From: Syntrophobacterales bacterium
GTDB lineage: Bacteria > Desulfobacterota > Desulfobaccia > Desulfobaccales > 0-14-0-80-60-11
Assembly (NCBI GenBank): GCA_023512475.1
Contig: JAILZL010000003.1
Location: 1 to 64,000 of the forward strand
DNA: 64,000 bases
Reading direction: 5' to 3'
How positions within the stretch are numbered: the first letter of the stretch is position 1; the number at the start of each line of letters is the position of its first letter. A model generated the notes under the pieces. That model ran no database searches. It had not been told where the DNA came from and saw only the letters and a program-made list of their open reading frames with translations. Made by a program: the position numbers and the translations under genes. Positions 40,057-48,064 of the stretch are shown here, piece after piece.

Positions 40057-41127
<1,071 letters not shown>

Positions 41128-41239: not shown

Positions 41240-41593
41240 TTACATGGTCTGGCGGGCCAGCTCCGCCACCCGGGCGAAGCCGGCGGGATCGTGCACCGCC
41301 AGGTCGGCCAGGACCTTGCGGTCCAGGGCGATGTTGGCTTTTTTGAGGCCGCCGATGAACTTGCTGTAGGAGAGGCCCAGGGGCCGCAGGGCGGCGTTCA
41401 GGCGTATAATCCAGAGGCTGCGGAACTCCCGCTTGCGCACCTTGCGGTCCCGGTAGGCATAGGCCAGGGCCCGCTCCACCGTCTCCCGGGCGGTGCGGTA
41501 GAGGCGGCGGCGCCCCCCCACATAGCCCTTGGCCATCTTCAGGTATTTTTTCCGCCGGGCCCGGGAGGCCACGGCCTTCTTGACGCGGGGCAT
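41240..41593 (-). CDS. rplT: Ribosomal protein bL20
   Basis: This is a 23S rRNA-binding assembly protein of the large subunit. The 117-aa product has the L20 N-terminus ([19 protein letters not shown]), [17 protein letters not shown] and [18 protein letters not shown]. It follows rpmI by 15 nt. L20 represses its own operon in bacteria that have been studied. Confidence 0.97.
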
Positions 41594-41608: not shown

Positions 41609-41806
41609 TCACAGGTAAGGTAACAGGCGCTGCATGCGTTTCTGGTCCGCGGGGTGGACGTAGGCCGGCGTCCGGAGCTGGCGTTTGCGCTTCCGGGGCT
41701 TGCCGGTGAGCAGATGGCGCAGGCCCGGCTGTTTGAGCTTCAGGCGCCCGGAGGCGGTGGGCCGCAGCCGTTTGGCGGCCCCGCGATGGGTCTTCAGTTT
41801 CGGCAT
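41609..41806 (-). CDS. rpmI: Ribosomal protein bL35
   Basis: This 65-aa, very basic protein has the L35 signature KLKTHRGAAKRLRPTASGRLK. It sits between infC and rplT, as in most bacteria. Confidence 0.96.
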   Translation of the reverse strand: MPKLKTHRGAAKRLRPTASGRLKLKQPGLRHLLTGKPRKRKRQLRTPAYVHPADQKRMQRLLPYL

Positions 41807-41976: not shown

Positions 41977-42486
41977 CTATTTGGGTGCGACGATCATAAA
42001 CAGAGTGCGGCCTTCCGCTTTGGGTTCCTGTTCCACCACGGCCACATCCGCCAGCTCCTCGGCCATGCGGCGCAGGATGGCATAGCCCCGGTCCTGGTGG
42101 GCCATCTCCCGGCCCCGGAAGATCATGGTGATCTTGGCCTTGTCCTTCTCGGCCAGAAACCGGCGGATGTTTTTCAGCTTGAAGGCCATGTCGTGTTCTT
42201 CAATCTTCGGCCGGATCTTGACTTCCTTCACCTGGATGGTGGTCTGCCGGCGCCGGGCCTCCTGCTGCTTTTTGGCCTGCTCGTACTTGAACTTGCCGTA
42301 GTCCATCACCCGGCAGACCGGCGGGGTGGCCATGGGGGCCACTTCCACCAGGTCCAGGTTGTGCTCGGCGGCGTAGGCCAGGGCTTCCTTTAAGGGCACA
42401 ATGCCCACCTGCTGGCCGTCGGGGCCGATGAGCCGGACCTCCGGCGCCCTGATCTGCTGATTGATCCGCACACGCTGTTTCTGGAT
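41977..42486 (-). CDS. infC: Translation initiation factor IF-3 (ATC start)
   Basis: IF-3 controls start-codon selection on the 30S subunit. The body is typical (RINQQIRAPEVRLIG, MDYGKFKYEQAKKQQEARR, KITMIFRGREMAHQDRG). No ATG is available. A GTG at 42471 lies 22 nt from the ribosome-binding site, whereas ATC at 42486 is in frame and 7 nt after AGGAGG, giving I-Q-K-Q-R before the GTG. infC genes classically use AUU/AUC/AUA so that IF-3 represses itself, so I place the start at ATC. Confidence 0.93.
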   Translation of the reverse strand: MQKQRVRINQQIRAPEVRLIGPDGQQVGIVPLKEALAYAAEHNLDLVEVAPMATPPVCRVMDYGKFKYEQAKKQQEARRRQTTIQVKEVKIRPKIEEHDMAFKLKNIRRFLAEKDKAKITMIFRGREMAHQDRGYAILRRMAEELADVAVVEQEPKAEGRTLFMIVAPK

Positions 42487-42499
42487 GACCGCACCTCCT

Positions 42500-44425
42500 T
42501 TAAGGATTTGGGGGCCGCCCCGGTTCCGGCACCCGGCTCTCCGCCACCAGCCGGGGGATGAACTCCGGAAGCGGGATATCCTTGAGCTCGGTGCCGTCCC
42601 GGAGCCGCGGGGAGAGCGTGCCCTGGGCCGCCTCCCGGTCCCCGATCACCACCATGTAGGGGATTTTCTGCCCCTGCGCCTCCCGGATTTTATAGCGCAG
42701 GGTCTCGGGCCTCAGATCCACCTCCACCCGGAGCTCCGCGGCCCTGAGTTTCTCCGCCACCTCCAGCGTGTAGGGGTGGACCCGCTCGGTGATGGGCAGA
42801 AGGATCACCTGCACCGGGGCCAGCCACATGGGGAAGGCACCGGCATAGTGCTCGATGAGCACCCCCAAAAAGCGCTCCAGGGAGCCCAGGATCACCCGGT
42901 GGAGCATCACCGGCCGGTGGCGGCCGCCGTCGGCGCCCACATAGGTGAGATCGAAGCGCTCCGGCAGGGTGAAGTCGCACTGGATGGTGGCGCACTGCCA
43001 GCGGCGGTTAAGGGCGTCCTTCAGCTTGATGTCGATCTTGGGCCCGTAAAAGGCGCCCTCGCCCTCGCAGACGGCATACGCCAGACCCTTGCGCTTCAGG
43101 GCCCCCATCAGGGCGGTGGTGGCCAGCTCCCAGTCGGCGTCGGTGCCGATGGACTTCTCCGGCCGGGTGGAGAGCTCCACCTCATAGTCAAAGCCAAAGA
43201 TGGCCATGACATCGGCCACAAAGTCCAGCACCCCCAGGATCTCACTTTCCACCTGCTCCGGGGTGCAGAGGATGTGGGCATCGTCCTGGGTGAACTGGCG
43301 CACCCGGGTGAGGCCGTGGAGCACCCCGGAGCGCTCATGGCGCAGGACCGTGCCCAGCTCAAAGAAGCGCAGGGGCAACTCCCGGTAACTGCGCACCCGG
43401 GATTTGTAGATGAGCATGTGGGCCACGCAGTTCATGGGCTTGATGCCGTAGGTGGTGCCCTCCACCTCGGTGAAGTACATGTGCTCCCGGTAGTTCTCCA
43501 GGTGGCCGGAGCGGGCCCAGAGCTCGGCCTTGAGCATCTGGGGGCCCATGACCATCTGGTAGCCCCGCTTCAGGTGCTGGCGGCGCTCGAAATCCTCCAG
43601 CAGGCTGCGGAGGATTGCCCCTTTGGGGTGGTAGATGACCAGCCCCGGACCGGCCTCCTCCTCGATGGTGAACAGCCCCAGTTCCCGGCCCAGCCGGCGG
43701 TGGTCCCGGCGCTTGGCCTCCTCCAGGAGGGCCAGGTGCTGCTCCAGCTCCTCCCGGGTGGGGAAGGCGGTGCCATAGATGCGCTGCAGCATGGGCCGGC
43801 GCTCGTCCCCCCGCCAGTAAGCCCCGGAGATGGCCGTGAGCTTGAAGGCGGTGAGGTAGCCGCTGGAGGGCACGTGCGGCCCCCGGCAGAGGTCCACAAA
43901 ATCCCCCTGGCGGTACAGGCTCACCCGCTCCTGGTCGATCTCCTGGAGCAGCTCCACCTTGTAGACCTCGCCCTGGCTTTGGAAGAGCCGGATGGCCTCC
44001 TCCCGGGGCACCTCCTCCCGGACGAAGGGGAGGTCCTGAGCCGCCAGTTCGGCCATCTTGGCTTCGATTTTGGGCAGGTCCTCGGGGCTGAAGGGTTCCG
44101 GCACGTCAAAATCGTAGTAAAATCCCGATTCAATGGCCGGCCCGATGGCCACCTTGGCCTCAGGAAAGAGGGCCCGCACCGCTTCGGCCATGAGGTGGGA
44201 GGTGGAATGCCGGAGAATTTCCAGGCCTTCGGGGGTGTGATCCCACACCGGGGTCAGGGTACAGTCCCGGGTCAGGGGCCGGGTGAGGTCGGTGAGCTCC
44301 CCGTCCACCTTGACGGCCACCACGTGATGGTTCCCGGACACCCCCAGCTCCGCCAAGGCTTGGGCGGCGCTCAGGCCGGGCTCACAGCGGCGACTGGGGC
44401 CGTTTTCCAACCGGATCGTAATCAT
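42500..44425 (-). CDS. thrS: Threonyl-tRNA synthetase
   Basis: The 641-aa enzyme has an N-terminal TGS domain ([16 protein letters not shown]), the editing domain ([23 protein letters not shown]) and the class II catalytic core with the zinc-binding Cys in MNCVAHM, and HVLRHERSG-type motif 2 ([14 protein letters not shown]). The anticodon domain is C-terminal. The TAA stop runs into the infC ribosome-binding site. No Shine-Dalgarno is visible before ATG 44425, because an attenuator-like U-run occupies that place. Confidence 0.95.
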
Positions 44426-44436
44426 GAGGGTGCAAT

Positions 44437-44477
44437 AAAAAAGGCATCGCGGTGGTCCGTGGGAGTTACCGGATGCC
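44437..44477 (-). terminator. Attenuator-like terminator in the thrS leader
   Basis: On the minus strand GGCATCCGG pairs with CCGCGATGCC (one bulged C), followed by six T and then ATT, ending 12 nt before the thrS ATG. A 32-codon open frame (44564 to 44466) ends with its TAA just after the 5' arm. It contains no Thr codons. A terminator placed between promoter and gene implies attenuation; the sensing element is not identified and the T-box core is absent. Confidence 0.7.
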
Positions 44478-44565
44478 GTTTAGCTCATTTTGTCGGTCTG
44501 AATGTCGGCAAAAATGCTGCTGACCCCGCCAAAATTCCGGGTCCCCCCGGCCGGATTCAGCCATA

Positions 44566-45885
44566 ATGTGGCATAAACACCTGAGATTGTCAAGGATGTT
44601 TGCAGGCTGTCCACCCCGGGGCCTCCAGGGCCGCGGTTGCGATCCCGCCAAGCCGGTTCACAGGGCGGGCGGGGCCGGCGCCGGTCCGGGGTCCTTCCCC
44701 TCCGACCTCAGGCGCAGGGGGGCCCGGTTATGCTCCGGGGCCGTCCTGGTGCTGGCCCTCCTGCTTCTGGCGGCCTGCGGTGCCAGCCCCCAGCCCGGGA
44801 AGCTGGAGGGGCTCCTGACCGAGTCCTGGCAGGGGTATGTGCGCCGCTTTATCCACCCCGAAGGCCGGGTGGTGGTGCCGGAGCGCCGGGGCGGCACCAT
44901 CTCCGAGGCCCAGGCCTATGCCCTGCTGCGGGCGGTGTGGGCCGGGGACGAGGCCACCTTTGCCCGGGTGGCCCGCTGGACCCGGACCCACCTCTCCCGG
45001 GAGGCGTGTTGTGGCGACCACCTCCTGGCCTGGCATTGGGGCCCCCGGGAGGACGGCACCTGGGGGGTGCTGGACGCCAACACCGCCTCCGACGCCGATC
45101 TGGACTACGCTCTGGCCCTGGTGCTGGCCCACCGCCGGGGCTGGCGGCCTCCGGAGGGCCCGGACTACCTCACCCGGGCCCGGCGGGTGGCGGCGGATAT
45201 CTGGCGGCGGGAGGTGGTCCACCTGCCGGATGGCACTCCGGTTCTGGCGCCGGGGAACTGGCATGAGGCGGCGCCCCCCTATCTCCTCAACCCCTCCTAT
45301 TTTTTCCCCGCCGCCTGCCGGCTGTTGGCCGAGGCCACCGGGGAGGGCCGCTGGCAGGAGCTGGCCGCCGCCACCTACCCCCTCGTGGCCCGGCTGGGAC
45401 AGGGGGTGGGGGGCCAGGCCGGGGTGGGGCTCTTCCCGGACTGGGCCCTCCTGATGGCCGACGGACGGGTGGGCGCCGCGCCCGGCCGGGAGAGCCACTT
45501 CGGCTGGGAGGCGGTGCGCCTGCCCTGGCGCCTGGCTGTGGACCGGCTGTGGTACGGCCGGGAGGAGCCGGTGCGTCTGCTCGCGGCCGGGTTTCTGCCC
45601 TTTTTCCGGGAGCGCTGGCAGCGGGAGGGCCGCCTGGTGGCGGTGTATGCCTATGACGGCCATCCCCGGGTGAGTTATGAGAGCCCGGTGCTTTATGCCG
45701 GGGTGCTGGCCGGGGCCCTGGCCGCGGGGGACAGGGAATGGGCCGGAGCCCTGGCCCGGCGCATCATGGCCTTTTACCGGCAGGATGAACAGGGCGGATA
45801 CTTCGAGGCCCCGGACAACTATTACGCCCAGAACTGGGCGTGGCTGGGTCTGGCCTTGTACGCCGGTAAGGTGCAGCCCTTCTGA
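44566..45885 (+). CDS. Glycoside hydrolase family 8 lipoprotein
   Basis: GH8 enzymes (cellulases such as BcsZ, chitosanases, xylanases) cut beta-1,4 links. The proton-donor region reads ISEAQAYALLRAVWAGDEATF, and the catalytic-base region DANTASDADLDYAL. A lipobox LLAAC at about residue 71 implies anchoring in a membrane. The start is uncertain: ATG 44566 or 44596 both leave a long, odd extension before the signal segment, so the true start may be non-standard. It stands alone, divergent from thrS; a cellulose or exopolysaccharide link is possible. Confidence 0.85.
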   Translation: MWHKHLRLSRMFAGCPPRGLQGRGCDPAKPVHRAGGAGAGPGSFPSDLRRRGARLCSGAVLVLALLLLAACGASPQPGKLEGLLTESWQGYVRRFIHPEGRVVVPERRGGTISEAQAYALLRAVWAGDEATFARVARWTRTHLSREACCGDHLLAWHWGPREDGTWGVLDANTASDADLDYALALVLAHRRGWRPPEGPDYLTRARRVAADIWRREVVHLPDGTPVLAPGNWHEAAPPYLLNPSYFFPAACRLLAEATGEGRWQELAAATYPLVARLGQGVGGQAGVGLFPDWALLMADGRVGAAPGRESHFGWEAVRLPWRLAVDRLWYGREEPVRLLAAGFLPFFRERWQREGRLVAVYAYDGHPRVSYESPVLYAGVLAGALAAGDREWAGALARRIMAFYRQDEQGGYFEAPDNYYAQNWAWLGLALYAGKVQPF

Positions 45886-47714: not shown

Positions 47715-48064
47715 TGGTGGAGGCGGCGGGAGTCGAACCCGCGTCCGCAAATAGTCCCTTTAAGCGTCTACATGCTTAGCCGGCGTTTTCATTTCGCTCC
47801 CAGGGACTTCCACCGGCGGAATTCCCTGACGCTAGCCTGCCTGAGGGTTTTCGTCCGGTGAGCCGCAGACCTGCTCACCAGCTTTGCCGGAATTCCTGCA
47901 CCCGGGGCTCCCTTCCGGCAAGGAGTTCCCGGATGCTGGCCTTAAGCGGCCAGAGCGTAGCCGTAGTTGTCGGCACTTAATGGTTTCCCATCCGTTTTAC
48001 GAGCGGACAGGACCTCGGCATGCAACTTAAAGTTCCCTATTCACGTCGAAGCCGTTTCGCCCCC
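47715..48064 (-). ncRNA. ssrA: Transfer-messenger RNA
   Basis: tmRNA rescues stalled ribosomes with SmpB. The 350-nt RNA begins GGGGGCG and ends CGCCTCCACCA; these ends pair as the acceptor stem, and a TTCGACTCC T-arm is present. The tag frame (47974 down to 47942) resumes at GCC and encodes ADNYGYALAA followed by TAA. The terminal LAA matches the usual protease-recognition end. Confidence 0.97.

Follow-up and report, generated by a model that had tools for sequence, protein, structure and literature searches.

The window, which is the whole 64,000-nt stretch of DNA analysed here, carries a terminator-type hairpin directly before the start codon of thrS. This raises the question of whether the hairpin decides if thrS and the genes behind it are transcribed and, if it does, what reads it. 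The earlier note on this DNA named no strand; the hairpin, its U6 tract, the leader and thrS all lie on the minus strand, where thrS heads the following gene string:

42500 to 44425, minus strand: thrS, threonyl-tRNA synthetase, 641 aa (TIGR00418, 710.9 bits)
41977 to 42486, minus strand: infC (IF3), read from the AUC at 42486-42484 that follows AGGAGG
41609 to 41806, minus strand: rpmI-like frame, named L35 by eye
41240 to 41593, minus strand: rplT (L20)
40057 to 41127, minus strand: pheS

In E. coli, this operon supplies textbook examples of gene control, with ThrRS acting on thrS, IF3 on infC and L20 on rpmI; the control considered here, if real, would be an extra layer upon it. The infC start is best read as the AUC after AGGAGG. 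The list of open reading frames has a GTG further in, and by eye the corresponding codon in relatives is AUC, AUA or CUG, all starts of the rare kind that IF3 discriminates against.

The hairpin region is composed of these parts:

44477 to 44443, minus strand: terminator-type hairpin, GGCAUC-CGGU-(14 nt)-ACCG-C-GAUGCC
44477 to 44472 and 44448 to 44443, minus strand: outer arms, GGCAUC and GAUGCC
44471 to 44468 and 44453 to 44450, minus strand: inner arms, CGGU and ACCG, with a bulged C at 44449
44442 to 44437, minus strand: U6 tract, kept in the leader alignment

The earlier note had described a 9-bp stem and a U6 lying 12 nt before the ATG. Hairpin and U6 stand as described; the stem has 10 pairs (6 + 4, with the bulged C) and the gap measures 11 nt. 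Those 11 nt between U6 and the thrS ATG at 44425, AUUGCACCCUC, lack a Shine-Dalgarno. The anatomy of an intrinsic terminator is present, namely a GC-rich hairpin with a U-tract directly after it, placed between a predicted promoter and a gene. Folded alone, the hairpin reaches -16 kcal/mol (z -3.61), a value equalled by 1 of 200 shuffles, and the stability of the whole 141-nt leader is not unusual (z -1.40; 15 of 200 shuffles). A stock terminator scan, which admits loops of 3-8 only, returned 0 sites.

The predicted promoter upstream of the hairpin has two elements:

44588 to 44593, minus strand: -35 element, TTGACA
44565 to 44573, minus strand: extended -10, with TG at 44573-44572, C, and CACATT at 44570-44565, after a 17-nt spacer

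The form TTGAC[AT] occurs at this place in 26 of the 27 leaders from the window's order, L009 being cut by a contig end. The spacer is conserved, and TG is present in 24 of the 26 promoter-bearing leaders (absent in L004 and L136). Across 31 genomes, 11 of the 13 zero-mismatch matches to TTGACN7RGTNTTTATG are thrS leaders; when one mismatch was allowed in the window's genome, thrS was the sole match. Transcription is predicted to start at about 44558 (44560-44556), a position that we count as a prediction because CACATT, a weak -10, matches TATAAT at 3 of 6 positions only. In the leaders of the order, 81-106 nt of leader precede the hairpin. A transcription start downstream of the hairpin, the outcome against which the earlier note had set its reading, is unlikely given the conserved predicted promoter upstream. 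On the plus strand, a divergent gene at 44566-45885 matches glycosyl hydrolase family 8 (Pfam); its frame, taken from a provisional start, overlaps the promoter region of thrS. Three leaders of the order (L008, L013 and L023) have 129-170 nt from the U-tract to the thrS start, versus about 12-23 nt in the other 24; their promoter-hairpin distance is unchanged.

The placement of the promoter bears on the ribosome track proposed in the earlier note:

44466 to 44564, minus strand: 32-codon frame (ATG 44564 to TAA 44466), judged not a leader gene

According to that proposal, a ribosome terminating on this frame blocks the hairpin. Both the window and the congener L003 have this frame open, with the stop at the same place, and the promoter scan offered an alternative 20 nt upstream (TGGACA 44613 / GACAAT 44586) that would put the 32-codon ATG inside the transcript. 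The -35 of this alternative is not kept in L002 or L003. From the conserved promoter, the ATG (44564-44562) falls between the -10 and the predicted start; the frame is broken in L002 by a stop 9 codons in, and between L001 and L003 the codons in its middle are shifted. Since the ATG precedes the predicted start, L002 is broken, L003 is shifted and the alternative -35 is not kept, the 32-codon frame is probably no leader gene, and the two congeners compared gave no sign that it is more than chance. We regard hairpin blocking by a ribosome on this frame as highly improbable. The letters do bear out that the frame has no Thr codon, an absence that carries no weight.

An alignment of thrS leaders from relatives had been proposed in the earlier note; thrS loci were compared across the phylum. 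A thrS match was found in 59 of the 59 phylum genomes searched, and 30 of them, the window's own included, yielded loci. Within the order, 27 of the 29 genomes searched match the N-terminal part of thrS, which added loci L136 and L137. A further 80 named contigs were added, 5 of which are copies (L031-L035, of L004, L008, L016, L017 and L025) and were excluded from counts; L050 and L091 were too short for the 105-locus hairpin count. Of these 105 loci, 85, window included, have a GCAUC...G[AG]UGC hairpin with a U-tract no more than 450 nt before thrS (26 of 27 in the order and 59 of 78 outside it), and 20 lack it under this rule. The same rule matched 5 times in 1.33 Mb, the rest of the same loci, which sets the expectation at 0.18 versus the 85 observed. 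An earlier, stricter rule found the hairpin in 73 of 104 loci. A helix rule blind to letters found a helix with a T-tract in 81 of 104, 69 of them with GCATC; in six loci of the order (L002, L005, L012, L016, L018 and L025) it chose another helix. In the class to which G052 belongs, GGCATCN4-14GATGCC+YYTTY, sought anywhere in the genome, is present in 231 of 244 genomes and 78 of 79 genera, and this short-loop form, among the matches listed, usually occurs once or a few times per genome; by our own reading, the reversed pattern used as a control matches 3 of the 244 rows.

The hairpin pattern has two matches in the window's genome, one at thrS and the other within an open coding frame of contig C6. 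A hairpin regulon in this genome was considered and rejected, the sole non-thrS match being the one within that coding frame. Other genomes of the order do have additional hairpin or promoter pattern matches.

The attenuator before thrS that the earlier note proposed is supported because the hairpin, the U-tract and the upstream predicted promoter are conserved. We judge it rather probable that the hairpin acts as a transcription attenuator of thrS, and also of infC, rpmI, rplT and pheS if these are co-transcribed. The support drawn from sequence consists of the hairpin, the U-tract, the promoter placement, the single place in the window's genome, the ancient linkage to thrS and a near-invariant 5' arm. 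That the hairpin is kept across much of the phylum suggests that an operon for protein synthesis is under an on/off control of ancient origin.

Outside the order, a tRNA gene shares the locus. In 71 of 78 loci (e.g. L044, L046 and L051), thrS is directly preceded by tRNA-Val(GAC), and in 56 of these 71 the hairpin sits between the two genes. This arrangement, with the hairpin directly following tRNA-Val(GAC), is what would be expected of a plain terminator or insulator that formerly closed tRNA-Val transcripts and today only allows a constant level of unregulated readthrough, a view also favored by the failure to find either a sensor or a cis antiterminator. Within the order, however, no tRNA was found upstream of thrS in any of the 27 loci, some of which have short upstream stretches, and the hairpin is kept nonetheless. 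Of the 43 tRNA matches in the window's genome, 30 were typed; the tRNA-Val(GAC) among them sits on a different contig from thrS, with an unrelated hairpin and T-run behind it. Because the hairpin is kept where tRNA-Val is absent, and tRNA-Val has a different hairpin, the conserved hairpin goes with thrS and not with the tRNA. A plain terminator also need not conserve letters; terminator stems typically conserve pairing and not sequence. Among terminator-like hairpins of loci L020-L110, the arms read GCATC/GATGC in 55 of the 74 that lie before thrS versus 6 of the 388 elsewhere, and all six of the latter are the thrS hairpin itself, recorded on the other strand (L038, L083, L088 and L099) or outside a 250-nt limit (L030 and L048). 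We consider the plain terminator rather unlikely, and the attenuator remains our preferred reading.

The two arms of this attenuator hairpin have not changed alike. Covariation is seen in the pairs that adjoin the core (position 5: UA 10, UG 5, GC 26, AU 15 and GU 1). Arm changes were scored in the 83 of 105 loci that have at most 2 changes from GGCATC/GATGCC, a limit that 20 of 913 control windows also pass. The 5' arm was changed inside GCAUC in 2 of the 83 scored hairpins (L014 and L084), and in L014 the core pair is broken (GGCACC/GAUGCC). An A to G change in the 3' arm, which keeps a U-G pair, occurs in 15 of the 83 and, by eye, in at least 5 lineages. Among the 22 unscored loci, the 5' arm is changed by eye in L047 and L079, and the 3' arm in L022, L024, L025 and L075. 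Because the 5' arm hardly varies while the 3' arm drifts by wobble, pairing alone is insufficient to explain the conservation, and something other than the pairing partner probably reads the 5' arm as well. Letters of one arm that are conserved phylum-wide at one gene point to a conserved reader of that arm.

Candidates for this reader were sought in the leader itself. Pairing of the 5' arm with the 89 nt upstream gave a mean z of -0.19 in the 27 leaders and 0.04 in 60 loci, and with the 95 nt downstream 0.48 and -0.30, respectively. A cis antiterminator was rejected in these 87 loci, the arm-flank duplex energies being no better than those of dinucleotide shuffles; attenuators worked by a ribosome or a protein need none. 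An alternative CCGU/ACGG pairing seen by eye in f1 leaders amounts to 4-6 bp only and is not general. tRNA-Thr was likewise rejected as the arm's pairing partner: the 3 tRNA-Thr genes found among the 30 of 43 tRNA matches typed contain neither GCATC nor GATGC.

ThrRS is another conceivable reader, as the hairpin could mimic tRNA-Thr and be bound by ThrRS as in E. coli, acting here on termination. The identity of the gene fits, and a central NGU (GGU, CGU or UGU) occurs in 10 of 27 distinct short loops (of 87), where the shuffled mean is 3.5 and 0 of 2000 shuffles reach as high. In a second sample, 5 of 61 distinct inner segments, among the matches listed, have a central NGU, below the shuffled mean of 8.2. 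Mimicry of the tRNA-Thr anticodon was set aside on this account: the NGU excess of one loop sample is suggestive, but it was not repeated in the other. Moreover, conservation lies in the stem and not in the loop, NGU is absent from the window's apical loop, and close relatives lack it as well (GAGUUUC in L049, L061 and L068; GAGAUUC in L055), in loops that are related by descent. An operator bound by ThrRS is thus improbable in our estimation. The E. coli operator, in which ThrRS binds leader hairpins to control translation according to the excerpted text of PMC3858243, shares with the present element the gene and a structured leader. The present element differs in having a terminator ahead of the start codon and, in the window, a loop that is no anticodon mimic; neither GCATC nor GATGC occurs in the 300 nt before the E. 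coli thrS gene.

A T-box or another known riboswitch or leader family would supply a sensor directly. The 3' arm of the hairpin contains NACCGCG, which we take to belong to the T-box core, but this is the wrong arm. The earlier note found no T-box core, and that holds, with no Rfam T-box match in the window or in the leaders tested. At gathering score, Rfam matched nothing in the window besides tmRNA, which lies at 47715-48064 on the minus strand (RF00023, 189.6 bits). Among thrS leaders, 6 loci searched at E up to 10 and 8 more at E up to 5 gave no family at threshold, and the only relaxed match was RF02194 in the L088 leader, on the opposite strand and below threshold. We hold a known family of this kind to be the least probable of the readings considered. 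The thrS T-box of Firmicutes is a terminator-type control, so that terminator-type control of thrS is common to both; no T-box was found here. Its presence before Firmicutes thrS is given in the excerpted text of PMC2494555. The L20-Deltaproteobacteria leader (RF03126) belongs to the same gene string and lies downstream of thrS in L046 and L069; it is a different element in a different place, and it was not found in the thrS leaders tested. The earlier note had assigned no sensor, and neither an Rfam family at threshold nor a cis antiterminator was found in the leaders tested.

The leaders of the order offer a further candidate, in the form of very short frames that end just before the hairpin. 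A frame of 5-11 codons whose start (GUG, UUG or AUG) has AAU or AAC as the next codon, and whose stop lies 7-18 nt ahead of the arm, is present in 19 of 27 leaders and 8 of 11 genera, versus an expectation of 0.48 from shuffles (4-15 codons, stop 5-20 nt before the arm), a contrast to be read with the knowledge that the motif was picked after viewing the sequences and that the leaders share ancestry. If every NUG start (AUG, GUG or UUG) is admitted, the count is 22 of 27 versus 6.5 expected. The frame is kept though its start codon, its stop (UAA, UAG or UGA) and its length (5, 6, 7 or 11 codons) vary. In nine aligned f1 leaders from four genera, AGGAG, CGTGAA, TATGTAA and CGGCA are intact amid variable stretches, and AGGAG lies about 16 nt before the GUG, far for a Shine-Dalgarno. 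The UGUAA of these leaders was considered as an anticodon loop and rejected; it has no flanking stem by eye, and its variation to UAG and UGA is better explained by a stop codon. Translation of the short frame in the order is no more than likely, since the motif was chosen post hoc and the leaders are related. The peptide shows no conservation among the leaders of the order, and Thr codons are not enriched in the 19 strict frames (3 of 138).

The strict short frame is missing from the window's genus and from L004, L006, L010, L020 and L021. Two other frames lie before the hairpin in the window:

44485 to 44532, minus strand: candidate leader frame UUG...UGA of 15 codons, LAGSAAFLPTFRPTK, with two ACA and its stop 7 nt before the arm
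44480 to 44488, minus strand: alternative mini-frame AUG-AGC-UAA, 2 nt before the arm, with AUG-NNN-UAA in all 3 genomes of the genus

L001 and L002 both have the 15-codon frame open at this position. Its homologue in L003 (MSAGSAASLTTIFQ...) has an AUG start, runs into the hairpin and contains adjacent ACG-ACA. Given 2 Thr codons in 15 in the window and this adjacent pair in L003, threonine sensing stays possible in this genus. A short frame ending just before the hairpin is a better candidate for a leader peptide than the 32-codon frame.

These elements can be combined into a proposed mechanism. Transcription would begin at about 44558 and produce a leader of about 80 nt, after which the hairpin and U6 would end most transcripts before thrS; the on state would be readthrough into thrS and the genes behind it. 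As with termination itself, we infer that keeping the GGCAUC 5' arm from pairing would yield more readthrough. In the order, the occupant of the arm would be a ribosome on the short frame that ends 7-18 nt before it. Such a ribosome is the most likely agent there, in an assignment that we make tentatively, the translation step being its weakest link. Since Thr codons are few and the peptide is not conserved, the frames would report translation initiation or ribosome supply, and not threonine. At 7-18 nt past a stop codon, the arm would lie on the border of a terminating ribosome or slightly outside it, and the ribosome may thus work by clearing the upstream RNA instead. Elsewhere in the phylum, where a tRNA stands in front, another factor would have to read the arm. 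The full proposal is a phylum-wide attenuator of the ThrRS-IF3-L35-L20-PheRS operon whose GGCAUC would be read in trans by a protein or RNA, which in the order would also be tuned by a ribosome on a very short frame (often AUG-UAA), and which would sense initiation capacity, perhaps by way of the operon's own IF3, and not threonine; taken as a whole, we put it forward as a speculative possibility.

Leader-peptide attenuators such as E. coli pheM-pheST, thr and trp consist of a promoter, a short frame and an intrinsic terminator, followed by synthetase or biosynthesis genes. The present element is like them in its predicted promoter, candidate short frame, terminator-type hairpin and aminoacyl-tRNA synthetase gene, and the E. 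coli leader gene pheM lies within the same gene string. Unlike them, it has no run of regulating codons in the 19 frames counted above and no conserved alternative pairing, and its hairpin is more widespread than the short frame. Searches of the open-access literature found no report of such a thrS element or of thrS control in these bacteria, and the excerpted texts of PMC2965389, PMC2494555, PMC3858243, PMC11109978, PMC2864571 and PMC3766115 contain no such thrS element.

Five loci without a GGCAUC hairpin upstream of thrS (L053, L058, L059, L062 and L072, two of them Desulfomonile) share a possible GGGAAUG...CAUUCCC hairpin that ends a few nucleotides before the thrS ATG and possibly represents a different control of thrS.
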